A stretch of 44,334 bases of DNA, from assembly GCA_025057395.1 (NCBI GenBank), contig JANWXU010000020.1:1-44334 (forward strand), read 5' to 3'. Below are positions 9,101-28,873 of the stretch, piece after piece. The stretch comes from Bacteroidia bacterium (GTDB lineage Bacteria > Bacteroidota > Bacteroidia > J057 > JANWXU01). Under the pieces are notes generated by a model, which saw nothing but the letters and a program-made list of their open reading frames with translations, was not told the origin of the DNA and made no database searches. Position 1 is the stretch's first letter. Each line of letters begins with the position of its first letter. The translations under genes and the position numbers were made by a program.

Positions 9101-9728
9101 AGATTTCTTCAAAGTATTTCCTTACCAGCCCCAAAAAGTTATTACTATTCACACCCTTAGCTCTATCTATCTAGAAAATTTGGGTAATTTTCAATTTCGT
9201 TCCACCCCATTACCCTTCCAGGCACAATTATTTCCTATCAAGGGCATGCTAGCCTGTGATATAAACCAGGATGCATGGCTGGATCTTTTAATCATAGGAA
9301 ACGAATACAATACCCATCCTAATTTTGGGCGTCAAGACGCAGGCAATAGCCTAGTGCTTTTAGGCCAAGGCAATGGTAACTTTACTGCTCAAGAAAATAC
9401 AGGTTTCTGGGTATCCTCTGATGCACGTGCGCTTACCAAAATAAAAATAAAAAATCTTCCTTGCTTTTTAGCTTCAGCTAACCAAGATTCACTTTTTTTC
9501 TTTACCCTCCATAAACCTCAAAATTACTTCTACTTTGAATTTATTCCCAATGAAGCCTACGCCCATATCTATTTCAAAGGATCTACTCAACCCCGAAAAC
9601 TTGAAAACATTCCCGTCACCTCTTACTTATCTTATTCGTCATCCAGCTCTTTTTTGAACAAGAACTTAATTGAAAAAATTATTACCTTTAACTCTACTCA
9701 TCAGCATGTTCGAACAATTAAACCTTAA
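6159..9728 (+). CDS. Exported VCBS/FG-GAP repeat protein with ASPIC/UnbV domain (copy 1)
   Basis: The 1189-residue protein begins with a signal peptide (about 1-23, ending AFSQ) without a lipobox. Two beta-propeller-like halves of FG-GAP/VCBS repeats follow, each repeat marked by a calcium-loop pattern of the DxNxDGxxD type. Examples in the first half are DINNDNLPDI, DLNNDGYLDIF, DANNDSWPDIY and DLDRDGDLDLI. In the middle (about 530-620) is an ASPIC/UnbV domain, seen as the GYQAS...HFGLPP signature. The second half has DINQDGLEDIF, DYNKDGFIDLF, DIDNDGWQDLI and DFDNDGDIDYVVGN. This CRTAC1-like architecture is common in Cytophagales. No C-terminal type IX signal is evident. It lies 15 bp upstream of its paralogue, so the two are probably co-transcribed. 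A run of eight G at 6345-6352 sits early in the gene. The ligand is unknown. Confidence 0.88.
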   Translation: MLLKLSCLWILCFFLLIEKNAFSQQTQLFTPLTAQQTGITFRNTSDAQVYKINPAIYTDFFNGGGIAVGDINNDNLPDILFTGNTTAPRLYLNLGNLQFQDITEKAKISLTGWATSAAIVDLNNDGYLDIFICRSGASDSTLLSNVVFINNRDLTFSEKTQELKLDQDKSYTLYAAFLDYDKDSDLDIYLVNAPDFEALKKSPPHLPQAFKAEIIRSKISPHEMMQLEGPRLKISFKGSDKLLRNDLEKGFVDVTALAQLPQETGMGLHAAIIDANNDSWPDIYVCNDFIGPDYLYINQKDGTFVDSAFYYFKQMSFSSMCADFGDLDNDGEPEALITEMLPYEPFREKAFISYYPIYYYEKIFTPIKKRLPQYLKNSLFRKVGGKWLAEVAHYTNLARTDWSWSALIADFNNDAWQDIFISTGMAVEFNYLDFYTYQNNPNQKFQRYQKQEDLIYSLPRNPQPNFLFLNQKNFQFENAGNQNGLAWKGITPAATYADLDRDGDLDLIYNNQDTTAFILRNNVRENSQNPFFTITFEKKDFIQSLGAKIYLKAKDLWQFREVSISKGYQASTENIAHFGLPPQTTNIDSLLILFADNKFLLFTNLKSNQIFKAKYAEAQLWQNKSLYATIFKKEPFFKKASLIHEYKHQENPFIDFETERLLLKKYSCQGPGISVEDINQDGLEDIFLGNGAGHAPMIWLQQPNGNFIPSLQPGWQNEFYQDAVGSIFVDYDNDNDKDILLFFAGNETPVEKPNNYRIRLYKNLGKGQYLEDTTSLPIQLPTTCIAASDYNKDGFIDLFIGASVLPSNWPLAKGSLLLKNNKGTFEPQTQLSWLDTLGIITNALFSDIDNDGWQDLIIVGEGTPIYFIKNEQGTLKPIRTNLEPIHGFWQSITAADFDNDGDIDYVVGNVGNNHRYSASLQKPITIVVQDLDKNGKIDPLTFFYDRGQQVSLFNRDLICEQVPAFRNQFLTYADFGKAKLQDFFKVFPYQPQKVITIHTLSSIYLENLGNFQFRSTPLPFQAQLFPIKGMLACDINQDAWLDLLIIGNEYNTHPNFGRQDAGNSLVLLGQGNGNFTAQENTGFWVSSDARALTKIKIKNLPCFLASANQDSLFFFTLHKPQNYFYFEFIPNEAYAHIYFKGSTQPRKLENIPVTSYLSYSSSSSFLNKNLIEKIITFNSTHQHVRTIKP

Positions 9729-9743: not shown

Positions 9744-12700
9744 ATGAATAAAACTTTTTTTTGCATCTGGACTGCCATAAAACTCACTTTGCTTTTTAAG
9801 CCTTTAGCAGCCCAACCCCTTTTTTATCCTCTACCACCATCTACTACTAACATCGACTTTACCAATACCGTCGATGATAAGCCCGAAATTAATGGGCTTA
9901 ACTACCCCTACTATTACAATGGTGGTGGAGTTGCTGTAGCCGACTTAAATAATGACGGACTAAGTGATATTATCTTAACCGGTAATGGAGTACCTTCTAA
10001 AATCTATCTTAATTTGGGCAAACTTAAATTTAGGGATATTACCCAAGAGTCAGGTTTTGTTTTTCCAGGATGGGCAACCGGCGTAACCGTCGGTGATGTG
10101 AATAACGATGGTTATCTTGATATCTTTGTTTGCCGATCGGTTTCTGACAAAGCAGAGCTTTTGCAAAACCTTCTCTTTATTAACAATGGAAACCTAACTT
10201 TTACCGAAAAGTCTTCGGCTTGGGGGCTTATAGAAAAAGAACTTACTATCCATGCAGCTTTTTTAGACTACGACAATGATGGTGATTTAGACCTCTATAC
10301 TCTTAACCACCCTAATATTATTAACTTTAAGGGCAGCCCTACTATGGCGGTTGATAGTAAAATGCGGGAAGAAGTAGCAAGACTTAAAATTAATCCTAAC
10401 GACTACATTCAACTTACACCTGGCTCCACACTAATAGAAACTGGAACTGATAAATTATACGAAAACATAGGCGGTAAGTTTGTAGAAGTTACCCACAAGG
10501 CCGGTCTACCAGCCGAGCATGCCATGGGTTTAAGCGTTACTGCCGCAGATATTAACCAAGATGGATATGTAGATCTTTTCATTGGAAATGATTTTATTGG
10601 TCAAGATTTTTTGTACATTAATCAAAGAAACGGCACTTTTGTAGATAGTACTATCTACTACTTTCCTCATTTGTGTTACTACTCCATGGGTAACGATATA
10701 GCTGATATTAATAATGACGCTTTGCCAGATCTTATTGTTCTAGATATGCTCCCTGAGGATAATTTCCGAGAAAAGTCTGCTATTCAATATATGCCCTTAC
10801 ACTTCTATGAAACTGTATTTACTTCCCAAAATAGAAGAATTCCTCAGTTCATAAAAAATCATTTATATATCAATACTGGAAAGCCCCCTTTTCTAGAAAT
10901 TGGGCAATTTGCAGGTATAGCTCGTACCGATTGGAGCTGGGCTCCCCTATTCGCTGATTTTGATAACGACGGTTACAAAGATTTATTTATCTCTAACGGA
11001 CTTAAAAAAGACCTTAACTACTTCGATGTTTTACAAGGCGAAGAAATATATAAAGTGGGTGCTAAATTTAGCTTTAACCCCCAAGAAATGTTACGCAAAT
11101 TACCTGACCTTAGGTTACCTAATTATATTTTTCAAAATAATAGGCAATACCGCTTTCTCCCTAAAATGCAAGAATGGGGAATGCTAGGGGCTATAAATAC
11201 CAGCGGTGCCGCTTACGCCGATTTAGATAATGATGGCGACCTAGAAATTATTACTAATAATATGGATACCGTTGCTATCATTTATAAAAATCAATCTCAA
11301 GAAATATCGAAAAATCATTTTTTACGTATTTTACCCTTTTGGAAACCGCAAGGGGCTATCGCCTTTCATACCAAAGTTTGGCTTTACACGCCTGAAGGCA
11401 TTCAATATCAGGAGCTAAAAACTACAGCCGGCTATCAATCTTGCTCGGAACCTATCCTACACTTTGGCTTGGGGAAAATCAATAAAGTAGATTCTATTAT
11501 CGTAGTTTTTCCTAACCAACAAAAGCTCGTGCTTTTGAATCCTGCCTTAGATAAGCTTCATACCCTTTTTGCCACACAAGCTCTGCTTAAGTTTACTACT
11601 ACTTTGCCAATTCAATCTCCGCTTCTTTTCGAAGACCAAACTAAAAAGCGAGAGCTAAATTGGAGCCACACAGAAAATAAATATTTAGACTTTGAATATG
11701 AGCGCCTTCTATTACAAAAAAAATCACATGTACCTCCTCCACTTGCAATAGGAGACCTTAATGGAGATGAAATGGAAGACTGTATAATAGGTAGTAGTGC
11801 CATGATGACTCCTACTCTCTGGCTCCAAACCAAAGAAGGAAAATTCCAAAAATTACAGAATTGTCCTTGGGAAAAAGAAAAACACGCTGACATTACAGCT
11901 ATATTACTATGGGATTTAGATAATGATTCTGATTTGGATATTTACTTTGTAATGGGGGGAAATGAAGTACATAAAGATACTACTCTTCTGCAAGATTGGA
12001 TCTACTACAACGACGGCAAAGGCAACTTTAGTAAATACCCTTATCCATTACCTGCTAATAACAGCAATTGCATTGCTGCCGCTGATTACGATAAAGATGG
12101 AGATTTAGATATTTTCCTAGGAGGGGGAAGTGTACCTGGCAGCTACCCGCTAGCTGCCGGTAGCTACCTAATAAAAAATGAAAAGGGAATTTTACAAGAC
12201 GCCACAGAAACAGAGGCTCCAGAACTAAAAATTCCTGGAATTATAAATGCTGCCCTTTGGACCGACTTTGATAATGATAGCTGGCAAGATTTAATTCTTT
12301 GCCCAGAATGGCTTCCACTTCAATTCTACAAAAACGAAAAAGGTAAATTGAAGCGTATCGAAATAGAGGGCTTAGAATACACTTCGGGATTATGGCAAAG
12401 TATTGTAGGTGGCGATTTTGATAACGATGGCGATACTGACTACATAGTTGGCAATTGGGGCTTAAATAATCGTCTAAGCAACTTCGTAAGTCCCACCTCA
12501 CCCTTAATTTGCATAGTAACAGATATAGATAAAAATGGCAGCCTCGATCCTCTAGTTTTCTATTTTCAAAAAGGACAGTATTACCCTGTTACAGCCCGCA
12601 AAGAACTTTTTGAACAGGTACCCTCCTTACGCAATCAATTCATTACTTTTAGTGCTTATGGTAAAGCTACTCAAAATGATATTTATAAAAATGTTTCTCT

Positions 12701-13307
12701 TGAGGGTTCTCTGCGCTATGAAATACATACACTTACTTCCTGTTATCTAGAAAACCTAAGTAAGGGAAAATTTCGACTCATACCCTTGCCACTTCAATTA
12801 CAGTGGAGCCCCTTGCGCGGTCTTCTGGTAGAAGATTTCGATCAAGATGGCAACCTAGATATTCTAGCCACTGGTAATTCACAAGAACCTCATCCTAATT
12901 TAGGTTATGAATATGGTTCTCAAGGATGGTTTCTAAAAGGAAAGGGCGATGGCACTTTTGAAGTACTTCAACATACTGGCTTTCGTATAGAAGGAAGCGG
13001 TAGAGCACTCGCTTTAAGCATTTCTGCCAAAGAAAATCAACCTCTTATTTGGGCAACCCAAAATCAAAATCAAGCAAAAGTTTTTGGTCTTTTACCTCCT
13101 TTTACTCCCAAAAGTATTTGGCAAGCCCCCCACTTACTACATTCTTGCTGGCTAGAGCTTAGCGGCGGCAAAAAAAGAAAAATTGAATTTTACTATGGCT
13201 CGGGCTATCACTCCCAAAGTACTAGAAAAGTATTTTTTAATATCCACTCTAAAAACTTACTACAATACGACCATTCAAGCCAAACTTTCCAGGCACTAAA
13301 ACCTTAA
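9744..13307 (+). CDS. Exported VCBS/FG-GAP repeat protein with ASPIC/UnbV domain (copy 2)
   Basis: This 1187-residue paralogue of the preceding gene matches it in length and colinear architecture: signal peptide (ending PLAAQ), FG-GAP/VCBS repeats, central ASPIC/UnbV domain (GYQSC...LHFGLG), and a second set of repeats. Shared landmarks include the ARTDWSW segment, the FREKS/FREKA segment, and the late NWGLNNR versus NVGNNHR loop. Its calcium loops are more canonical than in copy 1 (DFDNDGYKDLF, DLDNDGDLEII, DYDKDGDLDIFLGGG, DFDNDGDTDYIVGN). The two genes clearly arose by tandem duplication and have diverged substantially. It is probably surface-exposed or periplasmic, with Ca2+-dependent ligand or protein binding. 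Nothing next to it (no SusC/SusD pair) identifies the ligand. Confidence 0.88.
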   Translation: MNKTFFCIWTAIKLTLLFKPLAAQPLFYPLPPSTTNIDFTNTVDDKPEINGLNYPYYYNGGGVAVADLNNDGLSDIILTGNGVPSKIYLNLGKLKFRDITQESGFVFPGWATGVTVGDVNNDGYLDIFVCRSVSDKAELLQNLLFINNGNLTFTEKSSAWGLIEKELTIHAAFLDYDNDGDLDLYTLNHPNIINFKGSPTMAVDSKMREEVARLKINPNDYIQLTPGSTLIETGTDKLYENIGGKFVEVTHKAGLPAEHAMGLSVTAADINQDGYVDLFIGNDFIGQDFLYINQRNGTFVDSTIYYFPHLCYYSMGNDIADINNDALPDLIVLDMLPEDNFREKSAIQYMPLHFYETVFTSQNRRIPQFIKNHLYINTGKPPFLEIGQFAGIARTDWSWAPLFADFDNDGYKDLFISNGLKKDLNYFDVLQGEEIYKVGAKFSFNPQEMLRKLPDLRLPNYIFQNNRQYRFLPKMQEWGMLGAINTSGAAYADLDNDGDLEIITNNMDTVAIIYKNQSQEISKNHFLRILPFWKPQGAIAFHTKVWLYTPEGIQYQELKTTAGYQSCSEPILHFGLGKINKVDSIIVVFPNQQKLVLLNPALDKLHTLFATQALLKFTTTLPIQSPLLFEDQTKKRELNWSHTENKYLDFEYERLLLQKKSHVPPPLAIGDLNGDEMEDCIIGSSAMMTPTLWLQTKEGKFQKLQNCPWEKEKHADITAILLWDLDNDSDLDIYFVMGGNEVHKDTTLLQDWIYYNDGKGNFSKYPYPLPANNSNCIAAADYDKDGDLDIFLGGGSVPGSYPLAAGSYLIKNEKGILQDATETEAPELKIPGIINAALWTDFDNDSWQDLILCPEWLPLQFYKNEKGKLKRIEIEGLEYTSGLWQSIVGGDFDNDGDTDYIVGNWGLNNRLSNFVSPTSPLICIVTDIDKNGSLDPLVFYFQKGQYYPVTARKELFEQVPSLRNQFITFSAYGKATQNDIYKNVSLEGSLRYEIHTLTSCYLENLSKGKFRLIPLPLQLQWSPLRGLLVEDFDQDGNLDILATGNSQEPHPNLGYEYGSQGWFLKGKGDGTFEVLQHTGFRIEGSGRALALSISAKENQPLIWATQNQNQAKVFGLLPPFTPKSIWQAPHLLHSCWLELSGGKKRKIEFYYGSGYHSQSTRKVFFNIHSKNLLQYDHSSQTFQALKP

Positions 13308-14936: not shown

Positions 14937-17147
14937 GTGAAGTTCATATTACTACACTTTACATTACTATTCTTTGTGGTTTTTAAAGCATATAAAAATC
15001 CTCTCTTATTAGCTCAAATACCAGATAGCGCCGAGAAGGCTACCAAAGTAACTGAGTTAGCCCCTATTTCTATAGAAGATAATAATAATAAGCCCTCTAT
15101 CACTCGTCTTAAACCAATAGTAGGAACTTACATCTATGCTGGAAAAAAGAATGAAGTAATAGAATTAACTCAATTAGATGCAAATATCACTGAAAAAATA
15201 GCACGTCAAATTTTTAGCAAAGTACCCGGCGTTTTTGTTTACGATTTGGAGGGCAGTAATCAATTAAATATTTCCACACGAGGTCTAGACCCTCATAGAG
15301 GATGGGAATATAACGTTCGCAAAGATGGAATCATTACTAACTCTGATATGTACGCTTACCCTGCAAGCCATTTTAGTCCCCCTATGGAAAGTATAGAACG
15401 CCTAGAGCTTATAAGGGGAACTGCAGCCTTGCAATATGGAGCCCAGTTTGGCGGCATGCTTAATTATATTACTAAACAAGGCGATACTACCAAACTTATT
15501 AGTTTTGAAAACTTTAGTACGGTAGGCTCCTTCAACCTGCTTAGTACCTATAACGCTATTGGCGGAAAGATAGGAAAAATAAAATACTATAGCTACTATG
15601 CTAAAAGATATAGAAAGGGCTATCGAAAAAATGAGCAAACAGATTACGAAGCCCAGGGAATTATTCTTACTTACCAGTTACTTCCTAACCTTAGTCTAAG
15701 AGCTGAATGGTCTCACTCGGTTTATATTTATCGCATTCCGGGTCCTCTTAATGATGCAATGTTTCAAAGAGACCCTACCCAAGCTACGCGTTTGCGAAAT
15801 TATTATAGCCCTGATATCCACGTACCTTCGTTTATGGCCTACTGGTCACTTACCCCTAAAATTAATTTACAATACCAAGCTTCAGCAGTAATAGGGCAAA
15901 GAAGAAGTGTGATTTTTGATAGGCCTGCTACAATAAGAGATACTATTCAAGCTTCTACTTTGCAATATACTCCTCGTCAAGTAGATATCGATGATTACAA
16001 TAGTTTCACGCAGGAGCTTCGAGGCATTGGGCACTATTCTATCTTAGGCATTAACGGTTCCTTACTTTTGGGATTACAGTGGATGCATAATCATATGCTA
16101 AGAAGGCAATTAGGCAAAGGAACCCCAGGCTTTGATTTCGATTTAACTTTAATTGATCCTGCATGGGGAAGAGACATGCGCTTTAAAACGCATAATATTG
16201 CTTTTTTCGCTGAAAATAGTTGGCAACTCCATAAAAACTTTCGAATAAACCTAGGAATACGCTTAGAAAATGGAGAAAGCCGCATGGGAGGTAAAATTAT
16301 TTATTACCCCGAAAATCAAATTCCTGTAACCATGCCCCATAAATTTCCTTTGTTAGGTGCAAGCTTTAGTTATATGCCATTTAACGATGTGGAACTATAC
16401 GGTGGTATTGCCCAAAACTATAGACCTACTTTATTCAAAGACATAGTACCTGCTTCTATTTATGAAAAAGTAAACCCTGAGCTAAAAGATGGCAGGGGAT
16501 TTAATGCCGAAATAGGTTGCAGGGGCAGATTAGAATTTTTAGAGTGGGACATTACCCTTTTCTGGCTACAATATAATAACCGCTTCGGTACGCTAGCTAT
16601 CACTGAACCTAATGGCAATTTTTATATTTACCGAACTAATGTCGGAAATAGTGCCACCAAAGGCATAGAAATATTCCTACAGACGCAAGGTCAACTTACC
16701 ACCAAAACTCTTTTCTTTCTATTTACTGCTACTTCTATAATGGATGGCAGATATACAGAAGGTCAATTACGTTCTGGGAATGTAAACGTAGACCTTAAGG
16801 GAAAAAAAATAGAAAGCGTACCTGAGATAATTACTAGAAACGGACTTACAGTGCAACACAAAAAATTACGTTTTACCTTATTGCAAAGTTATACCGCTGC
16901 ATCTTTTGCTGATCCATTAAACACCCCAGAACCTAACCCTACTGGGTCTATAGGCCTAGTGCCTGCTTATCTTTTGTGGGATTGTAATGTTTCATGGCAA
17001 GTATCTAAAAATTTCGAATTCAGAGCCGGTTTACATAATATTACAAATAAGCAATATTTTACTAAAAGACCTACCTTTTATCCTGGGCCTGGCATTTGGC
17101 CCTCAGACGGCAGAAATTGGAATATGTCTTTGATAATAAGGCTATAA
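14937..17147 (+). CDS. FecA-like TonB-dependent outer-membrane receptor
   Basis: This 736-residue protein has a signal peptide (about 1-27), a plug domain and a 22-stranded barrel. The plug shows the Bacteroidota FecA-type pattern: an AGKKNEVIELTQLDAN linker, ARQIFSKVPGVFVYD, STRGLDPHRGWEYNVRKDG, and IERLELIRGTAALQYGAQFG. The C-terminus has HNITNKQYFTKRP then YPGPGIWPSDGR, typical of receptors annotated as Fe(III)-dicitrate (FecA) transporters, and ends in a beta-strand. It lacks both an STN signalling domain and a carboxypeptidase-like N-terminal domain, and no fec transport genes are present. Iron-chelate uptake is therefore family-based inference. The start is GTG 14937 after an A-rich tract, 40 bp after lysS. 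A strong terminator follows. Confidence 0.88.
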   Translation: MKFILLHFTLLFFVVFKAYKNPLLLAQIPDSAEKATKVTELAPISIEDNNNKPSITRLKPIVGTYIYAGKKNEVIELTQLDANITEKIARQIFSKVPGVFVYDLEGSNQLNISTRGLDPHRGWEYNVRKDGIITNSDMYAYPASHFSPPMESIERLELIRGTAALQYGAQFGGMLNYITKQGDTTKLISFENFSTVGSFNLLSTYNAIGGKIGKIKYYSYYAKRYRKGYRKNEQTDYEAQGIILTYQLLPNLSLRAEWSHSVYIYRIPGPLNDAMFQRDPTQATRLRNYYSPDIHVPSFMAYWSLTPKINLQYQASAVIGQRRSVIFDRPATIRDTIQASTLQYTPRQVDIDDYNSFTQELRGIGHYSILGINGSLLLGLQWMHNHMLRRQLGKGTPGFDFDLTLIDPAWGRDMRFKTHNIAFFAENSWQLHKNFRINLGIRLENGESRMGGKIIYYPENQIPVTMPHKFPLLGASFSYMPFNDVELYGGIAQNYRPTLFKDIVPASIYEKVNPELKDGRGFNAEIGCRGRLEFLEWDITLFWLQYNNRFGTLAITEPNGNFYIYRTNVGNSATKGIEIFLQTQGQLTTKTLFFLFTATSIMDGRYTEGQLRSGNVNVDLKGKKIESVPEIITRNGLTVQHKKLRFTLLQSYTAASFADPLNTPEPNPTGSIGLVPAYLLWDCNVSWQVSKNFEFRAGLHNITNKQYFTKRPTFYPGPGIWPSDGRNWNMSLIIRL

Positions 17148-17217
17148 GAAGCCATTTCTTCTACCATTTCGTAGAACTGCAACTCGATAAATAGAGAAAT
17201 GTAAGTAAAAAAATAAG

Positions 17218-17257
17218 TGCAAATCTTAAATTACTTTAAGATTTGCATTTTGTTTTT
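17218..17257 (+). terminator. Rho-independent terminator after the TonB receptor
   Basis: A perfect 13-bp inverted repeat (17218-17230 with 17235-17247, loop TTAC) is followed by a T-rich tail. The stem is AT-rich but long. It separates the receptor gene from the two-component genes. Confidence 0.8.
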
Positions 17258-17290
17258 GTATTAGGTTTTAGTGAAATACACAAAAAAGCA

Positions 17291-17977
17291 ATGAAAATTC
17301 TTATTATTGAGGATGATAATAGAGTAGCCGAGCTAATTACTAGGGGGCTAAAAGAGCAAAATTTTGAAGTAGAATGGGCCAATACTGGAAAACTAGGTAA
17401 AAGTTTAGCCCTGCATAACGACTATGATTTAATTATAGTAGACGTACTTTTGCCTGATACTAACGGCGTTGAACTTTGCAAACAAATTCGTACCCAGCGC
17501 ATAGATATGCCTATTCTTCTACTTACTGCTTTAGGTACTACAGACGATAAAGTTGAGGGTTTTGAAGCCGGTGCTGATGACTACTTAGTAAAGCCTTTTG
17601 AGATGCGTGAACTTATAGCCAGAGTAAAAGCTTTAATTTCTAGAAAACAGCGTTATTCTCTAAGTAATAAGTCTATAACTATTCTACAGTACGCCGACCT
17701 AGAAATGAATCTAATCACTAAAACAGTTAGACGCAATGGCAAAGAAATTACCCTTACTCCCAAAGAATTCAAATTGTTGCAATATATGCTTGAAAACCCT
17801 GAACGCGTTTTAAGTCGAGAAGAAATTGCGCAAAAAGTTTGGAATACTTACTTTGATACAGGCACTAACTTCATTGATGTATACATTAACTACCTACGAA
17901 AAAAAATAGATAAAGATTTTTCTCATAAGCTTATTCATACTAAGATAGGCATGGGATTTATCTTACAGAAAGAATAA
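17291..17977 (+). CDS. OmpR/PhoB-family response regulator
   Basis: The protein has 228 residues from ATG 17291. The receiver domain has the acidic pair in IIEDD (residues 7-9), phosphoacceptor Asp51 (LIIVDVLLPD), Thr79 and Lys101 (LVKPF). The C-terminal winged-helix domain contains LTPKEFKLLQYMLENP and ends in a typical GMGFIL strand. A longer reading from TTG 17243 is rejected because it would begin inside the terminator stem. The kinase gene starts 9 nt downstream, so the pair is one unit. Sequence style is closest to the CusR/ArlR group, but no efflux genes are adjacent, so the regulon is unknown. The FecA-like receptor upstream or the type IX cargo genes downstream are possible targets by position only. 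Confidence 0.95.
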   Translation: MKILIIEDDNRVAELITRGLKEQNFEVEWANTGKLGKSLALHNDYDLIIVDVLLPDTNGVELCKQIRTQRIDMPILLLTALGTTDDKVEGFEAGADDYLVKPFEMRELIARVKALISRKQRYSLSNKSITILQYADLEMNLITKTVRRNGKEITLTPKEFKLLQYMLENPERVLSREEIAQKVWNTYFDTGTNFIDVYINYLRKKIDKDFSHKLIHTKIGMGFILQKE

Positions 17978-17986
17978 AGAATACTG

Positions 17987-19405
17987 ATGAAAATTCGTAC
18001 CCGCCTTACACTACTATTCACATTTATAACAGCAACTATACTTTTGGGATTTGCTATCACTATTTATTTTTCTGCCCGCAACAATAGAGAAAAAGAATTT
18101 TATATTCAATTAAGGAAAGAAGCAATTACCAAAGCCAATTTGTTTTTAGAAGCAAAAGTTGATAGCAAAACTTTGCAAGATATTTATAAAAATAATAGGG
18201 CTATTCTTAGCGAAGTAGAAGTAGCTATCTATTCAAGTAATCAAAAACTCCTATACCATGACGCTGTAGACATTGATTTCGTTAAAGAAACTCCTAGAAT
18301 GCTTCAAGAAATACTCCAAAAAGCAGAAATTCAGTTCTATCAACAAGATTGGCAAGTAGTAGGAATACGCTACACATTTCAAAATCAAAATTATATTATC
18401 ACGGCAGCAGCTTATGATCAGCATGGGTATAACGAACTAAACAGTTTATTGAAAAACAGTTTAATGTTCTTCTTGCTTTCTCTAACTGTAATTTACTTTT
18501 CAGGACGCTTCTTTTCGCAAAAAGCCCTTGAACCTATTAAACAAATGGTAGATAGAGCGCAAAAAATATCTGCTATAAATTTAGACCTAAGACTCCCTTT
18601 ACCCCATACCAAAGATGAACTCGCCGAACTAGCTAATACATTTAATCAAATGCTAGACCGTTTACAAAATGCCTACGAAGAGCAAAAGCGTTTTATTTTG
18701 CATATTTCTCATGAGTTAAGAACCCCTCTTACAGCCCTCACTGCAGAATTGGAGCTTTCTCTTCAAAACAATCACAATATGCAGGAATATAAAGCTGCAA
18801 TCCAAAACGTATTAAAAGATACTCAAAAATTAGTGCGCCTGATTAATAGTCTTCTAGACCTTGCTAAAGCAAGTAGCGAACCTTCACAAATTTCCTTTAA
18901 GCCTGTAAGAATCGACGAACTGCTATTAGATGCTAGGCAACAAGTATTACAAGCTAATCCCGAATATAAAGTCACTATCTACTTTCAAACCCCTTTTGAA
19001 AATGAAGAACAAATATCTGTGTGGGGAAATGAATATCTATTGAAAATAGCATTCATTAATCTTATCGAAAATGGTTGTAAGTTCTCAACCCCTAGTGAGT
19101 GTGTAGTATCAGTAGCTTTATATCCCTCCAAAATTATACTTAGCTTCTCTGATAAAGGAATTGGCATTGCTAAGGAAGATTTAAAGAATATTTTTACCCC
19201 TTTTTATCGTGGAAAAAACAAGCATTTTGCCCAAGGGCATGGCATTGGGCTTACCTTAACTCATAAAATTATTCTTCTGCACCACGGAACTTTGAATGTT
19301 ATTTCCCAGCCCTCCTTTGGAACAACTTTTACCGCTGAAATACCTAATCTTACCGTTTCCAATTTTGCGGTTACCCTTACCAACGTCACTCCACTTCCTC
19401 GCTAA
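17987..19405 (+). CDS. Sensor histidine kinase
   Basis: This 472-residue inner-membrane kinase has a first membrane helix at about 7-29, a periplasmic sensor region of about 130 residues, and a second helix at about 157-175. A HAMP domain (about 176-230) follows, then a HisKA domain with phosphoacceptor His242 (HISHELRTPLTAL). The HATPase_c domain has the N box NLIENGCKFS, G1 box DKGIGIAKEDL, F box FTPFYRG and G2 box GHGIGLTLTHKI. It is encoded 9 nt after its response regulator. The periplasmic region has no recognisable named domain and the stimulus is unknown; general layout resembles CusS-type kinases. Confidence 0.95.
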   Translation: MKIRTRLTLLFTFITATILLGFAITIYFSARNNREKEFYIQLRKEAITKANLFLEAKVDSKTLQDIYKNNRAILSEVEVAIYSSNQKLLYHDAVDIDFVKETPRMLQEILQKAEIQFYQQDWQVVGIRYTFQNQNYIITAAAYDQHGYNELNSLLKNSLMFFLLSLTVIYFSGRFFSQKALEPIKQMVDRAQKISAINLDLRLPLPHTKDELAELANTFNQMLDRLQNAYEEQKRFILHISHELRTPLTALTAELELSLQNNHNMQEYKAAIQNVLKDTQKLVRLINSLLDLAKASSEPSQISFKPVRIDELLLDARQQVLQANPEYKVTIYFQTPFENEEQISVWGNEYLLKIAFINLIENGCKFSTPSECVVSVALYPSKIILSFSDKGIGIAKEDLKNIFTPFYRGKNKHFAQGHGIGLTLTHKIILLHHGTLNVISQPSFGTTFTAEIPNLTVSNFAVTLTNVTPLPR

Positions 19406-19526: not shown

Positions 19527-22500
19527 ATGACTTACCTGCAGAAGTATATCGTCTTTATACTTGCTTGGTTCTTGCTTTGCAAAGCAATAATAGCACAACA
19601 GGTGCCGCAAGAATATGTCTTGCACTACCTTACCTTCAATGACCCTATACAAGATGGAGTTCGAATGAACTTAAATCTACAGCCTATCAGCGGTCCTCAC
19701 CGCTGGGTAATTGGAAACGCTTATACAGACCCTAATGAAACTATAGAAACACCAGACCAAACCCGGGTAGTTCAAGGAAATATTTTTGGTGCTCCTAGAA
19801 GTGGATACCTATATATAACCAATCCATCAAACCCTTTATTCCCTAATGCTGCATATAATAAAAGATCTACTTCTAACGTAGTAAGCAAATTAAATGCCCA
19901 GACAATTTGTACTCTAGGATTTCAAATTGTAGAAATTTCTTTTTTCTGGATGGCAGGTGGAGATGGAGTAAATGCCTATGGTGAAATTTTATGGTCTGCT
20001 CGCGGCTCTGATCCTACACCAGTTACTATAGATGGACAGCCTCTGCGTCTTTTCGGTAGTAGAGATAAATGGCAATATACTACAGTTTCGGTACCGGGTA
20101 CAGCTAACACCAGCGATGTAGAATATTACATTCGATGGGTTAATCGCGCTAACAACGCAGGAGAGCCTATGGATCTATCAATTGGAATTGATGATTTTAC
20201 TGTAAAAGGCACTATAACAAAACTACCCAGACTTTTTACTGAAATTCGTCCGGCTCTACCAGGTAACCAAGTTTGCCAGGGCACTACTATTCAAGTTTGT
20301 TTGCGACATGAATGGCAACTGTGCCCGGGTTTTTATCGAATTCGCCTTTCAGAACCTAATGGCGAATTTACTCCCACCTCTCCCCAAATAGGACCGCTGT
20401 TTCATAGTATTGATACTACTCCTGGGCCTTTTAATATGTATTATCCTTCTTGGCCCTGCTTCACCGTACCTATTCCCCAATTTGCTTCTCCAGATATTTG
20501 CTATAAAATTCGCTTTGAACGATTTACTCAATATCCAATAGGAGGGGTAGGTAATTTTGCAGTTGACGATCTTACAGGTTATCCTTTTCTTCCGCCTGCT
20601 GTAGATGGCAGACCTGCTGATGCCCCCTGCTTTGAAGTAATTAATTGTCAACCACGATATATTATCGATACTCAACCAGAAGGACCTCCCTTCAGTCCAC
20701 GAATACCTGACGGTGCTCCCCCCACTCTTATTTCTCGAGAAAGGAATTGTGATATTGTTTGTGTAAATTCTCCATTAACTATAACTTTTGGTTCTCGTAT
20801 TCAAGTACGTAATCCTAATACTGGCCAGTGGCAAAACGCGCCTTCCTACTTATATGACCCTGGTAATGAGTATATCGGACAACTATTGCGGCTAAATATA
20901 AGTGGAAGAGATACCACGATTACCGTAGTGCGACAAATTGGACAGCCCTTAAGAGAGCGCGCAGGACTCGCACAATACCCTACTCGAAACAGCCCGTGGG
21001 GAAGCATTAGCGACTTAGTGCCGGATGTACCTGACGGCTGCAATTATTACTTGCGGGTAATCTCTACCAATCCCCCTTCGATAGACTCAAGATATTGGGG
21101 GCCCTTCTGCATCCGACATTGCGATATTGAAACAAATAACTTACGTCCTGTAAGCATTTGTTATTCTTGCAATGTGAAAGCTGAAGATGAATTTCCCACA
21201 GACCCTGAGCGCTCTTTGGTACCCTATGATTGGTATGTATGTACCCGCTGTAATAATGCGCCAGGTAAGTGTGAAGGGTGCAATGAGGAGCAAAAAAAGA
21301 TTTACCTGAATGCTTGTAAGGATACTATTCCTACTGGCTTACCTCACCGCTTAGAGCACGGAGCTTTGATACCTGTCTTAGTAAAAATCAATCGCTGGCC
21401 ATGGCCGCAAAACGCTCCAGTAAGATATTCTCCTGGTGATATTTTCGAAATTGAATTGTGGCAACCTGTTTCGCCTCCCCCTAGCGTTCCGCCTCCACTA
21501 AGACCTAGTCACGAGTATCCCACAATAGCCAAAGTAGATATCGACCAAACGTACCAAGAAATTCAGAACGCAGAAAATAGGCAAGTAGCTTTTATGCAAA
21601 TGGTTTCTAATACAAGGTGGCAACCCTCTAACCCTCCCCCCTCACAAGAAGCTATTATCTGGCTAAAAGTAATAGGGAGCGATAGAGGGGGGCCCCATCC
21701 TGCTAAAGCACCCAATCCTCCCCCTTACCCAGGGCCTTATTTCTTCCGTATTATTTCTAAAAAGAATCCACCCAATACCGCCCCCGATACTATTCCGGGA
21801 TTTCCGCATTCGCGTATTGGAAATGTTAATTGCAAACCCCAAGATGCATTTGGGCAGTTTACTACTCTTACTATTGCCGAACCGGCCCAAGCTGCCCCTA
21901 TGCTTATATTAAGCGATAACGTACCCGAATGTTACAATAAAAACGATCCTAATCCTAACGAAGGATATATAGGTATGGATATAGTACCCCCAGTGCAAAG
22001 TAGCTGCTATGAATGGTACATTAAGCGTCCTGGGGAAACAGAATTTAGCTACTTTTTTACTACCTGTCCTCCCAACAATAGTTCCTTGGGAGTAATAGTA
22101 ACTCAGGGAGAAACTTATGAGTTTAAAGTCCGGGAGCGTGCCGGCGGAGTAAACCAAGGGTGCTTTGGACCATTTTCGGAACCTCTCATAGTGGTAGCAG
22201 GGCAAAATCAACGCATTAAATTCAAACTCAATGAGCCCCCTCCTTTTTGCATCGGGGATGAAGTAGTGTATTCTGTGGAGTTTGATGCTACTACCCCTAC
22301 CCAGTACTCCTTTGCCGAGGCGCGTTTTGAGCCACCTACAGCAGGTAGAGTTACCTATACTGCTAATAATGAAATCCGCATCTTATGGCAAGATACGGGT
22401 ATGTGCCGCCTAAAAGTGCTGGGTATAGTAAAACCCTCACCCCTATGTGAGCTTAGAGATTCAGCATATTTTGTAGTACGTTCCTATGCAGATCCTCTTC

Positions 22501-24122
22501 CTATTTTTGGAGGAAAATCTCCTAAAATTCCGATTTGCTCTAATGAACCTTTTTACCTATTCAACATTCCTCCTCTTGCCCAAATGAACCGAAGAAAAGA
22601 CTTTTACGGCAAGCTCTTTGATTACGGTATGTGGGTTACGGATAAAGACTTCAAAGATGAATTAGGTCCTAATGACAGAATCAATACCTTTTGGCCCTCC
22701 CAAACAGCTATTGAAATTAAAGAAAATGTGAATAGTGACTTAGCCACGGAACAAGATTCTATCTTCCGCACTCGCGATGGCAGAGATGTTTGGAGGGGGG
22801 CTTTAGTAATTCCCGCAAGACAAATACCACCTGGCCAAGTTCGATATCTATTTTTAAGAACACGTAACGAAAATGGATGTGTAGCCCGCGACCCTATTAC
22901 CTTGCTAACCCCACCCGATTTCATCATAGACGTAGGAAAAGATACCCTAATTTGCCCAGGGCAAGTATTCCAACTCAATGCCAAAACCTTATTTACTACC
23001 CCATTTCCAGAGGGAGCCGAAAACTGGAAAACGGAAATTATGTATGAATGGGAAGAGCACCCGGGTGTAACTTACCTTGACCCAAGAAATATTCCTAATC
23101 CTAAAGTACGTCTGAGCAGACCCGTGAATACCCTAAAAGTAAATGTCACGGTAACCTATAAGCCTGATGAAAATTCAGCGCAGAGCCTCACTTGTGATAC
23201 TAAGTCTCGAGTACTAATAGTTCAAGTATATCAGCCTGCAGAAATGCAAGATAGAGTTTGCCTTTTAGATAGTACCTATTTCCTGCCACTACCCATTCGT
23301 GAAAATATGCCTGGAAAGTGGGAAAGTGGTTTTTATCAAAAGCCGCCTGACCAACTTCCTGTGCCTATCGAAGAAGAAAATAAAGTCCGTCTTGGCGCAA
23401 TAGACCAAGTAGGCGGAGTTAGAATAGGTAGAGCGGGCACCCCACAAGGATATAAAACAGTAAGCTTTGTTTATCGGCATGAGTCAAGTGGTTGCACTGA
23501 TACCCTACATTTAACTGTAACTGGTTCTCCAGAAATTGATTTCAAAGCTCTTAAGCCTAATTATCTTAAGTTTTTTCCCAGAGATTCAGCTATTAATTCT
23601 TTCTTAGATAAATCTTTAGGAACAGACCCTAACAGAAATCGGTGGCGAGTTTGGATTAATAAGCCCCACCTACCTAAAGCCGACACAAGTGTCTTTTTGA
23701 ACCAAAAGGATCTGGAAAATTACTTTTTTGAGTATAATAAAATTTTCCCAGATACAGTTTCTTATTTTGTAGAACTTACTGTCATTTCGCATGAAGGATG
23801 CGCAGCTAAAGATACACTCGAAGTACTAGTAGTAAACGTCTATAGCCTTATCGTTTACAATGTATTCACCCCCAATGGAGATGGTGTAAATGATCGTTTT
23901 GTAGTAGAAAATGAGGGGGTAAAAGAATATCGGCTTTCTATTTTTGATAGGTGGGGAAATCAAGTATTTTTTACTCAAAACCCCATGGAGCATTGGGATG
24001 GTACTCGCAATAATGATGGTGTTACTAAAATGCAGGAGGGAGCTTATTTTTATTACCTTGAAGGTAGATTTCATAATGATAGACAATTTCAACGTTCTGG
24101 AAATGTTACCTTACTAAGGTAA
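19527..24122 (+). CDS. Giant exported protein with type IX (CHU_C) sorting domain, copy 1
   Basis: The protein has 1531 residues from ATG 19527, which opens directly into a signal peptide ending IIAQ. A TTG 12 codons upstream would add a non-signal-like extension. Residues about 30-230 look like a MAM/jelly-roll module ending GIDDFTVKG. A long Cys-rich central region follows, including three CxxC motifs at 545-548, 572-575 and 582-585. The final 90 residues are the gliding-motility-associated C-terminal domain: VYNVFTPNGDGVNDRF, then SIFDRWGNQVF, WDGT and EGAYFYYLEG. This marks a type-B substrate of the type IX secretion system, exported across the outer membrane. It is colinear with the next gene. 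Adhesin or surface-scaffold function is inference. Confidence 0.85.
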   Translation: MTYLQKYIVFILAWFLLCKAIIAQQVPQEYVLHYLTFNDPIQDGVRMNLNLQPISGPHRWVIGNAYTDPNETIETPDQTRVVQGNIFGAPRSGYLYITNPSNPLFPNAAYNKRSTSNVVSKLNAQTICTLGFQIVEISFFWMAGGDGVNAYGEILWSARGSDPTPVTIDGQPLRLFGSRDKWQYTTVSVPGTANTSDVEYYIRWVNRANNAGEPMDLSIGIDDFTVKGTITKLPRLFTEIRPALPGNQVCQGTTIQVCLRHEWQLCPGFYRIRLSEPNGEFTPTSPQIGPLFHSIDTTPGPFNMYYPSWPCFTVPIPQFASPDICYKIRFERFTQYPIGGVGNFAVDDLTGYPFLPPAVDGRPADAPCFEVINCQPRYIIDTQPEGPPFSPRIPDGAPPTLISRERNCDIVCVNSPLTITFGSRIQVRNPNTGQWQNAPSYLYDPGNEYIGQLLRLNISGRDTTITVVRQIGQPLRERAGLAQYPTRNSPWGSISDLVPDVPDGCNYYLRVISTNPPSIDSRYWGPFCIRHCDIETNNLRPVSICYSCNVKAEDEFPTDPERSLVPYDWYVCTRCNNAPGKCEGCNEEQKKIYLNACKDTIPTGLPHRLEHGALIPVLVKINRWPWPQNAPVRYSPGDIFEIELWQPVSPPPSVPPPLRPSHEYPTIAKVDIDQTYQEIQNAENRQVAFMQMVSNTRWQPSNPPPSQEAIIWLKVIGSDRGGPHPAKAPNPPPYPGPYFFRIISKKNPPNTAPDTIPGFPHSRIGNVNCKPQDAFGQFTTLTIAEPAQAAPMLILSDNVPECYNKNDPNPNEGYIGMDIVPPVQSSCYEWYIKRPGETEFSYFFTTCPPNNSSLGVIVTQGETYEFKVRERAGGVNQGCFGPFSEPLIVVAGQNQRIKFKLNEPPPFCIGDEVVYSVEFDATTPTQYSFAEARFEPPTAGRVTYTANNEIRILWQDTGMCRLKVLGIVKPSPLCELRDSAYFVVRSYADPLPIFGGKSPKIPICSNEPFYLFNIPPLAQMNRRKDFYGKLFDYGMWVTDKDFKDELGPNDRINTFWPSQTAIEIKENVNSDLATEQDSIFRTRDGRDVWRGALVIPARQIPPGQVRYLFLRTRNENGCVARDPITLLTPPDFIIDVGKDTLICPGQVFQLNAKTLFTTPFPEGAENWKTEIMYEWEEHPGVTYLDPRNIPNPKVRLSRPVNTLKVNVTVTYKPDENSAQSLTCDTKSRVLIVQVYQPAEMQDRVCLLDSTYFLPLPIRENMPGKWESGFYQKPPDQLPVPIEEENKVRLGAIDQVGGVRIGRAGTPQGYKTVSFVYRHESSGCTDTLHLTVTGSPEIDFKALKPNYLKFFPRDSAINSFLDKSLGTDPNRNRWRVWINKPHLPKADTSVFLNQKDLENYFFEYNKIFPDTVSYFVELTVISHEGCAAKDTLEVLVVNVYSLIVYNVFTPNGDGVNDRFVVENEGVKEYRLSIFDRWGNQVFFTQNPMEHWDGTRNNDGVTKMQEGAYFYYLEGRFHNDRQFQRSGNVTLLR

Positions 24123-24448
24123 GCTTTAGTTAGTTAGCTTAAAATTTAAAATCCAAAGCCGGAATTTTTTCCGGCTTTTTTATTTTTCGGCTGCATAAAA
24201 CTTTACTGAAAAAACTGCGGAACCTTCTACTATTTCAATTAAAATCTAAATTACTCACAGAGCACAATACTAGTTAACTCAAAAAGACTTATTGTCACGC
24301 TTTATAGAACGTAAGCACAAAATATTCTAAGATATAAAATTTGAATAGAAGCAATTAGTTATTTTCATAAATATCTTTATATATTTACTATAATTCTTTT
24401 AAATTTTATAAAAATCAATTTATTAGAGGTAATAATTTAAAATAAAAA
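24123..24448. other. Intergenic region between the two giant type IX cargo genes
   Basis: This 326-bp stretch carries the terminator of the upstream gene (24155-24181), then very AT-rich sequence up to the ATG at 24449. I see no reading frame or RNA gene. TATCTTTA at 24372-24379 is one mismatch from the -7 consensus TAnnTTTG, but the nearest upstream TTG is too far away for a confident promoter. Confidence 0.5.
24155..24181 (+). terminator. Rho-independent terminator after cargo gene 1
   Basis: A perfect 10-bp stem (AAAGCCGGAA with TTCCGGCTTT, 4-nt T loop) runs directly into a T tract. It lies 32 bp after the stop, so the two cargo genes are probably transcribed separately. Confidence 0.93.
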
Positions 24449-27400
24449 ATGCATTGGCAATTAATACACTTAATCTTTTTAGTTCTTGCTTTTAGCTTAG
24501 GTAACGTACTAAAGGCGCAACCCTTGCCCGCCTCCTATGTACTATATTCTCTTCATTTTAACGACCCAAGCGAGTTACCCAAAATATTACTTAATAGTCA
24601 GCAACGAATTGCAGGCCCCAACCAATGGCTGATGAATAATAGCTATAGCGGAGCCCATGTAGAAAATCCACGGCAAGATAATGTAAATAGTGGGAATATT
24701 TTTAATGCTCCCCAAAGTGGCTACTTACACGTTACGAACATGCGAGACACCGCTATTGATAAAAATGCTGTTTTCAACCCTGCCGAAGCGACCGATGTCG
24801 TAACTATGTTGAACGTCAACCCCATTTGCCTAAAGGGCTTTCAAAAAGTAGAAATTTCATTTTTTTGGTTTGGCGGCGGTGATGGCGTAAATACCTATGC
24901 TGAAATTTTATATTCTCTTGGATGGGGGGGAACTCCTGAGCCTGTTCTGGGCACTAGCGGACCCATCCGTCTCTTTGGCTCTCCTAACCAGTGGAAATTT
25001 TTTGTAGTAGAAGTTCCACAGGTAGCTATGAAAGGAGATGTACGTTTTTACATTCGTTGGTTCAACAGCCGAAGTGAAACAGGTAATAATACTCCCCAAC
25101 CCTCTTTTGGAATAGATGATTTCTCTGTAAAGGGCACTATTCTCAAAAAGCCTAGGATTAAAACGATTTTAGATCCGACTCCTACGGGTCCAATTTGCCA
25201 GGGCGGACAAGTACGAGTTTGTTTCGAGCATGAATTTGACCTCTGCGCTGGCGTATACATCGTTCGACTTTCAGAACCGGGCGGCCAATTTACGCCTAAT
25301 TCTGCCGCTCGTGGCTTCTTCATTATCAACCCAGAATGGTACCCTAATGGTCGGTTTTGCACTACTATGCCTATCGGGCAGTTTAATGCCGCTGATGATT
25401 GCTATAAAATTCGTCTTGAGCGTGTAACGCAAGTAACCTCCGGGGGACTTATTTTCCCTGCAGACTCTATGTTTAATTATCCAGTCTATCCCCCTATTAT
25501 CAACGATGGCTACCATGATGAAGATTTACCCTGCTTTAAAGTAGATTTTTGTTCTACAAGATATTTCATTAACACGCAACCGGTACCAGGCGGCCCTGGA
25601 GTAAACGTAGGGCGTCTACCTACCTTTATGTCTCGGCAAGAACAATGCGATGTAGCATGTGTTAATTCTCCCCTTACAGTACACTTTGAGTCCTATGTAG
25701 AAATATGGGACCAAAGCTTGCAGCCTCCGCGGTGGGTGCGCTCTCCTACTTACCTTTTTGAACCTGGTAACGAATACCGCTGCCAATTATTACGTATACG
25801 AGGAAGAGATACTACTATTGTACAAGAAATTGGAGGCGCAATTCAAGACCCTAATATTTACCCCGGCCCTGTACGGGGAGATTTTGGTTCTTTTAATGCC
25901 TCGGTACCTGATGTACCAGACGGGTGTGATTATTATTTTCGAGTCGTTTCTACTCGTCCTGTAGCCATCGATGCTTCTTTACGTGGTCCTGTTTGCATCA
26001 AGCACTGTGATATTGTAACTAATAACAACCGTCCTGTAGATATTTGCTATTCTTGTAATATAGATGCCGACTTGGAAATGCGTGGCAAAGGAGCGGGAGA
26101 CCCGGTCCAAGCCCTTTTCGATTGGTACATTTGCCCTACGTGCACCACTTTTAATTGTATCAATTGCACAGCAGAAGATTATAAGCGCATTCTAGTTGCC
26201 TGCAAAGACACAGTTGTTCCCGAACGCGCAGAAAATCATCCCTTAAAGAATGTACGCGGTGCGCTTGTTCCCGTAAAAGTAGGAATAAATCGATGGCCGT
26301 GGCCACAAAATGCACCCGTACGTTACAACCCCAATGATGAATTTGAAATACAGCTCTGGCAACCTCAGCCTATGAATCCAGCTCCTCCCTTAAACCCTAA
26401 TCATACTTACCCAGCCATGGGAGATGTAGATGTCAACCAAACATACGGAGAAATTGCCTCCTTTAGGGGTATTCTCACCTGGAACCCCTCTACCTTAGAT
26501 CCCCCTCCTACTCGTGAAGCTATCTTATGGCTCAAAATAGACCCTAATGGCCCCAAACCAGCTGCCGGTACCTACTTTTTTAGAATCGTGGCTAAACGAA
26601 ATCCTGGTGGCAATGATCGAGATACCATACCCTACTTTTATGATTTGGTTCCACGCCCCAATTGTGAATTATTTGACAACACCGGTCAATTTACCACTCT
26701 TAGCATTGTAGAACCCAGTAGTACTAAACTCTCTCTAATGCAGGGAATGAACCAATCCGATTGTGATGGAGAACGCACTATGATGACTGTATTCATAATA
26801 GGTGCCCAACCTGGTAAATGCTATGAATGGTATGTAAATGACGAGTATGTAAATACATATTGCTTCCCCTTTACGGGGCTACGTTTTATAGGAAGACCAG
26901 GCACGGAATATCGGATACGTGTAAGAGAAAGAGCTGGCGGTGAAGCTCGAGGATGCTTTGGCCCCATGTCTGATGAATTTAAGTTTACAATGAAGAAAGG
27001 ACACCAATTTAGATTTGCCCTCAATGAACCTCCCCCCTTCTGTTTAAACGAAGTAATTAAATATTCCGTGGTCTTTGATACTATCACTCCTACTCTTTAT
27101 ACTTTTGAAGAATTTAAGTTTAATCCTCCTGACGCGGGTGACACAGTAGCTATTGGTAACAATGAATTTTATATTTTATGGAAAAAAGAAGGAACTTGCG
27201 ATATAAAAGTGCAAGCTATTGCAAAAGTCAATCAACTTTGTGAATTAAAAAAAGATACTACTTTTCATATCCGCTCTTATAGAGACCCTCTCCCCCCCTA
27301 CAATGAAGAACCTAAGCAAATTTATTTCTGCAGTAAAGATAGTGTATATTTACTACATAGTTTAGGCTTAGAACAAATGCTTAAAGATACCCTTACCTAT

Positions 27401-28873
27401 GGAAAAAGTTTTCAATATGGTCTTTGGAAAAGCAATGCTGAGTGGGAAGCACCCTTTGCTTCTGATGAAGAAGGACAAGCCCGAAAGTGGAGCCGCCTTA
27501 ACCGTATAGAAACTACACCTCCATTATCTTTCGATGCCGTAGCCAACCCTCAAATCATTGAAGCTAATAGAAAAATTTATTTACCAGGACTTTATATTCT
27601 ACCCCAAGCAATAAAACCCTCAGAAAGCGCTTATTACCTCTTAAAAGTACGCAACACAAATGGCTGTGTAGTAACTAGTAAAGTACAACTAAATGCCGCT
27701 CCTACTTTTAATCTAAAAGTAAGTAAAGATACTTTAATCTGCCTACACCAAACCCTTGAACTAAAAGCACAAACTGAATTTCCGGCTCCCGCACCTAATG
27801 TTCCCGGCAATTGGCAGATGATTTCTAAATATCGCTGGTATTCTACTGATGATGCCTCCTTTATCACTGCCATTGATATTCCCAATCCTGTAGTAAAACC
27901 TACTCAACCCAGTACTACTTACTACGTAGAAGCCACAGTTGAACATAAAATAGGAGACTATGTCTTCAGCTGTGAAACAATTACTAAACCCGTTGTAGTA
28001 AACGTTTATTTTCCTCAAGTAGAAACTAGGTATGTTTGCTTACAGGATTCTATAGCGGTTTTGCCTACCCCTCTAAGGCCCGAAGCCCCAGGAAATTGGT
28101 TGAACCCAGGAAGCGTGCGACTAGCAACAGGTAGCCAAAATATAGAACATATTAATAATCAAATTGCTTTAAGCCAAGTAAACCGTGCAGGCAATCAACC
28201 AATTGGTATTTCTGAAAAAAGAGAAGTTACATTTTTGTATCAGTTGGAAAAGCCAGAGTGCATTGATACTTTGCGTCTCAATGTGGTGGGCGATCCAAAA
28301 GTAAAAATAAGTAGCCCCAAACCTAATCCCCTTAAGTTTTTCCCACCTGAGGCGGCCACTAATTCTTTTATAGATGCTTCTATAGGCAATGATAAAACTA
28401 AGAACCAATGGACACTTTGGGCAGTTACTTATGGAGACACTATCAAAAGTAAGGGGGGTAACTGGGAGAACTATACCTTTATTTACGATAGAAAATATTC
28501 AGATACTGTAAAATATGTAGTCAAACTGGCCATTGAAAACGAATATGGTTGCAAGCAAACAGATACCCTAAACGTGATAGTAATAAACGAGAACATGCTT
28601 GTAGTGTACAATGTATTTACCCCTAACAATGACGGTGTAAATGATCGTTTTGTGATTGAAAACGCAGGAGTAAAAGAATTTCATATTTCTATTTTCGATC
28701 GTTGGGGTATGGAAGTATTTCGTTCCAATGATGTAAATAATTTTTGGGATGGCACTAAGTTTAATGATGGTACTACTCTAATGCAAGAGGGAGTTTATTT
28801 TTATTACATTAAAGGAGCTTTCAATACTGGTGCTACTTTCACTCGATCGGGAAATGTAACTTTACTTAGGTAG
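24449..28873 (+). CDS. Giant exported protein with type IX (CHU_C) sorting domain, copy 2
   Basis: This 1474-residue protein is colinear with the preceding cargo gene. It has a signal peptide (ending LKAQ) and an N-terminal jelly-roll-like module ending GIDDFSVKG (about residue 229). A Cys-rich centre follows, with CxxC motifs at 533-536, 562-565 and 570-573. The shared segment NRWPWPQNAPVRY and the NEPPPFC block match copy 1. The C-terminal CHU_C domain reads VYNVFTPNNDGVNDRF, SIFDRWGMEVF, WDGT, EGVYFYYIKG. ATG 24449 follows an A-rich leader. The Cys framework and proline-rich linkers are conserved while surface residues differ, which suggests duplication followed by ligand or partner divergence. 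Secretion through the type IX system is expected from the C-terminal domain; the function is not known. Confidence 0.86.
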   Translation: MHWQLIHLIFLVLAFSLGNVLKAQPLPASYVLYSLHFNDPSELPKILLNSQQRIAGPNQWLMNNSYSGAHVENPRQDNVNSGNIFNAPQSGYLHVTNMRDTAIDKNAVFNPAEATDVVTMLNVNPICLKGFQKVEISFFWFGGGDGVNTYAEILYSLGWGGTPEPVLGTSGPIRLFGSPNQWKFFVVEVPQVAMKGDVRFYIRWFNSRSETGNNTPQPSFGIDDFSVKGTILKKPRIKTILDPTPTGPICQGGQVRVCFEHEFDLCAGVYIVRLSEPGGQFTPNSAARGFFIINPEWYPNGRFCTTMPIGQFNAADDCYKIRLERVTQVTSGGLIFPADSMFNYPVYPPIINDGYHDEDLPCFKVDFCSTRYFINTQPVPGGPGVNVGRLPTFMSRQEQCDVACVNSPLTVHFESYVEIWDQSLQPPRWVRSPTYLFEPGNEYRCQLLRIRGRDTTIVQEIGGAIQDPNIYPGPVRGDFGSFNASVPDVPDGCDYYFRVVSTRPVAIDASLRGPVCIKHCDIVTNNNRPVDICYSCNIDADLEMRGKGAGDPVQALFDWYICPTCTTFNCINCTAEDYKRILVACKDTVVPERAENHPLKNVRGALVPVKVGINRWPWPQNAPVRYNPNDEFEIQLWQPQPMNPAPPLNPNHTYPAMGDVDVNQTYGEIASFRGILTWNPSTLDPPPTREAILWLKIDPNGPKPAAGTYFFRIVAKRNPGGNDRDTIPYFYDLVPRPNCELFDNTGQFTTLSIVEPSSTKLSLMQGMNQSDCDGERTMMTVFIIGAQPGKCYEWYVNDEYVNTYCFPFTGLRFIGRPGTEYRIRVRERAGGEARGCFGPMSDEFKFTMKKGHQFRFALNEPPPFCLNEVIKYSVVFDTITPTLYTFEEFKFNPPDAGDTVAIGNNEFYILWKKEGTCDIKVQAIAKVNQLCELKKDTTFHIRSYRDPLPPYNEEPKQIYFCSKDSVYLLHSLGLEQMLKDTLTYGKSFQYGLWKSNAEWEAPFASDEEGQARKWSRLNRIETTPPLSFDAVANPQIIEANRKIYLPGLYILPQAIKPSESAYYLLKVRNTNGCVVTSKVQLNAAPTFNLKVSKDTLICLHQTLELKAQTEFPAPAPNVPGNWQMISKYRWYSTDDASFITAIDIPNPVVKPTQPSTTYYVEATVEHKIGDYVFSCETITKPVVVNVYFPQVETRYVCLQDSIAVLPTPLRPEAPGNWLNPGSVRLATGSQNIEHINNQIALSQVNRAGNQPIGISEKREVTFLYQLEKPECIDTLRLNVVGDPKVKISSPKPNPLKFFPPEAATNSFIDASIGNDKTKNQWTLWAVTYGDTIKSKGGNWENYTFIYDRKYSDTVKYVVKLAIENEYGCKQTDTLNVIVINENMLVVYNVFTPNNDGVNDRFVIENAGVKEFHISIFDRWGMEVFRSNDVNNFWDGTKFNDGTTLMQEGVYFYYIKGAFNTGATFTRSGNVTLLR

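Follow-up and report, generated by a model that had tools for sequence, protein, structure and literature searches.

A cysteine-rich insert in two tandem type IX secretion cargo proteins of a Bacteroidia bacterium, probably a lineage-specific disulfide-stabilised loop

Introduction

What do closely clustered cysteine (Cys) pairs contribute to a protein that is presumably exported? The question is raised by two neighbouring genes on contig JANWXU010000020.1 of a Bacteroidia bacterium (assembly GCA_025057395.1), of which positions 1 to 44,334 were analysed (the window, 44,334 nucleotides in full). The genes encode protein A (1531 residues; 19527–24122, + strand) and protein B (1474 residues; 24449–28873, + strand), each with three CxxC motifs, starting at residues 545, 572 and 582 of A and 533, 562 and 570 of B. 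These sizes and positions had been given by a sequence-only reading of the window and were borne out. The same reading regarded the motifs as a conserved module resembling a metal-binding knuckle, while our comparison with homologues indicates that six of the Cys belong to an insert, which is probably a lineage-specific, disulfide-stabilised loop on a surface protein of the type IX secretion system (T9SS).

Results and discussion

Comparison with homologues resolves the "triple CxxC" into one ancestral Cys and a six-Cys insert of ~65 residues. The ancestral Cys closes a four-Cys module, which occupies residues 500–545 of A (C505, C528, C532, C545; 21024–21161, +; supported by homologues in the order and in class genomes) and residues 488–533 of B (C493, C516, C520, C533; 25910–26047, +; supported by homologues and by alignment to A). 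Its pattern reads GC-x-YY-x-RV...GPFC-I-x-x-C-DI...C in A and GC-x-YY-x-RV...GPFC-x-x-x-C-DI...C in the family, which is described here and has no name; both proteins satisfy the family pattern. The insert fills the space from the fourth module Cys to the following domain, a predicted beta-sandwich, with approximate ends at residues ~546–612 of A (21162–21362, +) and ~534–604 of B (26048–26260, +). In A, the motif CYSC (545–548; 21159–21170) joins the ancestral C545 to the extra C548 and is followed by CTRC (572–575; 21240–21251), CEGC (582–585; 21270–21281) and the sixth insert Cys, C597 (21315–21317), all on the + strand. The corresponding elements of B, likewise on the + strand, are CYSC (533–536; 26045–26056), CPTC (562–565; 26132–26143), CINC (570–573; 26156–26167) and C585 (26201–26203). 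Apart from these three each, neither protein contains a CxxC.

Sampled homologues carry the module but not the insert. We collected 66 distinct modules by pattern among the homologue loci, leaving out loci from the order search, which were the own ones or overlapped partly; L121, one repeat of L032/L038 and other modules that do not conform to the pattern are likewise excluded. Over the ~120 residues after the module, no CxxC occurs in any of the 66, although in L076 the contig ends before this stretch is complete. In 63 of 65 measured modules, 13–35 residues lie between the fourth Cys and the Y-x-P-x-N-x-F motif of the next domain, compared with 89 in A and 93 in B; the two outliers, 51 residues in L080 and 83 in L030, seem to be due to another domain downstream and to a missed pattern match, and in L025, L078, L102 and L113 the downstream domain is seemingly different, so that their distance may not be equivalent. 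The same stretch holds no Cys in 33 of the 65 modules, one in 31 and two in a single module, as against six in A and six in B. Thus, among the sampled homologues the triple-CxxC module is not conserved beyond the A/B pair, and the sequence-only reading had itself named such an absence from homologues as evidence against it.

A profile of the insert found the own genome only, both in the order (1/22, E ≤ 0.01) and in a phylum sample (1/395, E ≤ 0.001). In the class sample nine of 395 genomes, the own included, matched at E ≤ 0.1; the eight others (E 0.001–0.095) were taken as chance matches, with open frames of 27–99 codons and an internal stop in seven of the eight. Between the class and phylum samples there is overlap, and both were drawn from larger groups; moreover, the set contains no other genome of the same family, so closer relatives might possess the insert without having been sampled. 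As judged from these comparisons, the insert is a small lineage-specific variation that is absent from the sampled relatives. No literature on such an insert was found in open-licence PubMed Central (PMC) papers.

The module itself is widespread. With a 381-residue query from B it was present in 12 of 60 genomes, and it occurs in 4 of 22 genomes of the order and in at least 56 of 395 sampled genomes of the class, the own genome being included each time; the last number is a lower bound, since only up to nine first-look candidates were scored per genome. Matches to a 152-position profile outside the own genome stop between positions 40 and 79, no further than the middle of the insert. One open frame of 3726 residues (G006:C89; L032, L034, L038–L042) contains several four-Cys modules, some of which lack the first two Cys together.

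Both genes are open, intact and colinear frames on the same strand, and their products are paralogues over the full length, with 45% identity (644 of 1441 aligned positions) and 33 of 35 aligned Cys of A matched by Cys in B. The similar CxxC spacing, correctly noted in the sequence-only reading, is therefore expected and provides no independent evidence for a special module. High Cys conservation spans the whole of both proteins. What is unusual is the clustering of the CxxC motifs and not their number, because among 5000 shuffles per protein three CxxC within 40 residues arose in 0.08% (A) and 0.14% (B), but three or more anywhere in 4.3% and 5.0%, respectively. A and B are the only full-length copies found in their genome; of 31 matches to B, the remaining 29 cover parts of its C-terminal region (1252–1474) or fall within 1041–1110. 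A full-length profile search of genome contigs returned one locus, L043 of a Saprospiraceae metagenome-assembled genome, with the C-terminal end only, and a search of viral contigs and plasmids gave no match.

The assignment of A and B as type IX surface-protein cargo, as proposed before, is supported by sequence features. At the C-terminus both carry a CHU_C/Bac_Flav_CTERM sorting domain of T9SS type B above cut-off (A, 23850–24104, +, PF13585 E 6.3e-20; B, 28604–28837, +, PF13585 E 8.4e-21; TIGR04131 in both), and another sorting-domain model, TIGR04183, reaches its cut-off in B. A putative signal peptide spans residues ~1–23 of A as judged by eye, and the genome encodes the T9SS translocon protein SprA (TIGR04189, 2147.8 bits), so the proteins would be exported by this route. 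Beyond the sorting-domain models no Pfam or NCBIfam family, including peptidase families, reaches its cut-off in either protein, in agreement with the earlier statement that the Cys-rich middle has no named domain; a search of PDB sequences with the whole proteins gave no match. The architecture is probably beta-sandwich/immunoglobulin-like (Ig-like). Ig_7 falls under the cut-off in B (E 0.011), whereas PKD, SprB or Ig_7 repeats stand above it in two of four homologues scanned, all four of which end in CHU_C. For the jelly-roll N-terminus, which the earlier reading had also suggested, a below-cut-off Reelin_subrepeat-B in two of these four homologues gives slight support and A and B have no such match; such a fold is plausible.

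In their sorting domain, the signal peptide recognised by eye and the Cys-rich middle common to both, A and B thus resemble T9SS type B Ig-like/PKD surface proteins. They share the four-Cys module with their homologues; the six-Cys insert distinguishes them among those sampled. They can also be likened, without alignment, to cytophagalysin CPL1, a large secreted Bacteroidota protein reported to have many Ig-like domains and predicted disulfides (PMC11674741), which speaks for disulfides in A and B as well. CPL1 differs by its metallopeptidase domain. A second report describes engineered cross-links in the T9SS machinery (PMC12421860).

Disulfides are favoured in the host domains because the neighbouring Cys vary in pairs. 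The equivalents of C505 (a Cys no more than 40 residues upstream) and C528 are both present in 62 of the 66 modules and both missing from four, and neither occurs alone. The four modules are repeats of the 3726-residue frame of G006, a genome that is 56% complete, and a fifth repeat of this frame also lacks both Cys. A second pair consists of a Cys located where the insert sits in A and B, after the fourth Cys and before the Y-x-P-x-N-x-F motif, and a later Cys of the following domain, which reads P-C-x-D-S/T in 21 modules. Among the 63 modules in which this stretch could be measured, both are present in 30 and both absent from 30, while two have only the later and one only the earlier Cys; a narrower first count gave 27/27 versus 6/38 (Fisher p 9e-13). 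This paired gain and loss concerns the neighbouring Cys; for the insert itself, disulfides would follow by analogy.

We propose that A and B are tandem duplicates of a T9SS-type surface protein in which a lineage-specific insert separates the four-Cys module from the predicted beta-sandwich that follows. After Sec export, its six Cys would most likely be oxidised and, with partners that we can only presume, pair up in three disulfides, by which a small protruding loop would be stabilised; the other Cys of A and B are probably paired too. Such a loop would modulate contacts at the surface or stability, and the locus would be an example of how a widespread T9SS surface scaffold can accommodate, at a single site, a Cys-rich loop specific to one lineage.

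Several observations weigh against a disulfide-stabilised loop. Both Cys-pair associations were computed without correction for relatedness, the co-losses of the first pair are all confined to the repeats of a single gene in a single genome, and the second association concerns a domain Cys and not the insert's own Cys. Moreover, C532 does not form a simple pair with C545, as L030 and L121 lack it yet keep the fourth Cys. Without the signal peptide, A has an odd number of Cys (35 by hand count) and B an even one (36). The number is also odd in 16 of the 23 homologues regarded as full-length, a count that uses a rough signal-peptide cut and in which one of the 23 may be cut at its start; in such chains at least one Cys is left without an intrachain partner. 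Structure models built from an alignment of A and B only, with a mean predicted local distance difference test score of 38.4 and 42.5, are too poor to judge Cys geometry, be it that of disulfides or of a tetrahedral Cys4 site. Finally, no VKOR, DsbB or DsbA was recognised in the own genome (G000, 96% complete) at E ≤ 0.001, other oxidases not being searched, while the controls gave matches in 3, 6 and 8 of 14 genomes, respectively. Among the 60 genomes searched, VKOR is found in three and in none of the 12 that bear the module, the own included.

If the insert is indeed present in oxidised form, T9SS cargo of this branch would have to be oxidised by some other route, and how Cys-rich T9SS cargo gets oxidised in this group without recognisable DsbA, DsbB or VKOR becomes a testable question. 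Cys-rich as the examined homologues are, the module-bearing genomes among the 60 are without a recognised VKOR. The window also encodes a thioredoxin-like protein (4522–5061).

The alternative that survives best, possible but rather unlikely, is a structural zinc site formed by the two close CxxC (A 572–585, B 562–573), or by CYSC together with one of them, with the remaining Cys disulfide-bonded. The rarity of three CxxC within 40 residues by composition, the presence of all six extra Cys in both A and B and the missing DsbA, DsbB and VKOR would all agree with metal coordination. On the other hand, zinc-binding family models, zinc ribbons included, gave no match, neither with the whole proteins in Pfam and NCBIfam nor with the insert in Pfam. 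The second and third CxxC lie only four (B) or six (A) residues apart and the pairs are not followed by Gly, both of which are unlike usual zinc knuckles. Since the motifs are also absent from the sampled homologues and the Cys near the insertion site vary pairwise there, the metal-binding knuckle of the sequence-only reading is not supported. We also consider it rather unlikely that the locus encodes an undescribed small extracellular domain folded on a Cys-coordinated metal, or one whose disulfides are made without a recognisable DsbA, DsbB or VKOR.

An unconstrained linker, Cys-rich in both copies merely through duplication, is improbable. It would fit the occurrence of the insert in one genome only, but 28 of 60 aligned insert positions (47%) are identical between A and B, all six Cys are kept and 41% of the positions are identical without Cys, so that the insert has been retained about like the rest of proteins that are 45% identical. 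By this measure the insert is conserved no better than its surroundings, where identity between A and B is 53% (A 400–545) and 56% (A 613–800), and the earlier remark that the residues between the motifs differ was overstated, as their identity is about that of the whole protein.

That the insert derives from, or has converged on, a ferredoxin-like 4Fe–4S motif (KC-x-x-C...AC-x-x-T-x-PTG) is very improbable. In its favour are a Fer4_11 match in A (E 0.01) and formate dehydrogenase beta subunits as the best of the weak PDB sequence matches of the insert profile (E 0.027). Against it, Fer4_11 stays under the Pfam cut-off (16.5 vs 26.2 bits) with nothing in B, the Cys of the CPTG motif is missing, facing a hydrophobic profile position that is Ile in A, and an Fe–S cluster in a protein exported by Sec and T9SS would be unusual.

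Genomic neighbourhood

A ZIP-family zinc transporter (PF02535; 42786–43523, +) is encoded in the same window, with no link to the insert shown. Just upstream of A (14937–19405, +) lie genes for a TonB-dependent receptor and, after it, a response regulator and a sensor kinase. Farther upstream lies a second tandem paralogue pair (6159–9728 and 9744–13307, +), whose products of 1189 and 1187 residues contain FG-GAP repeat/UnbV_ASPIC domains and are 39% identical.

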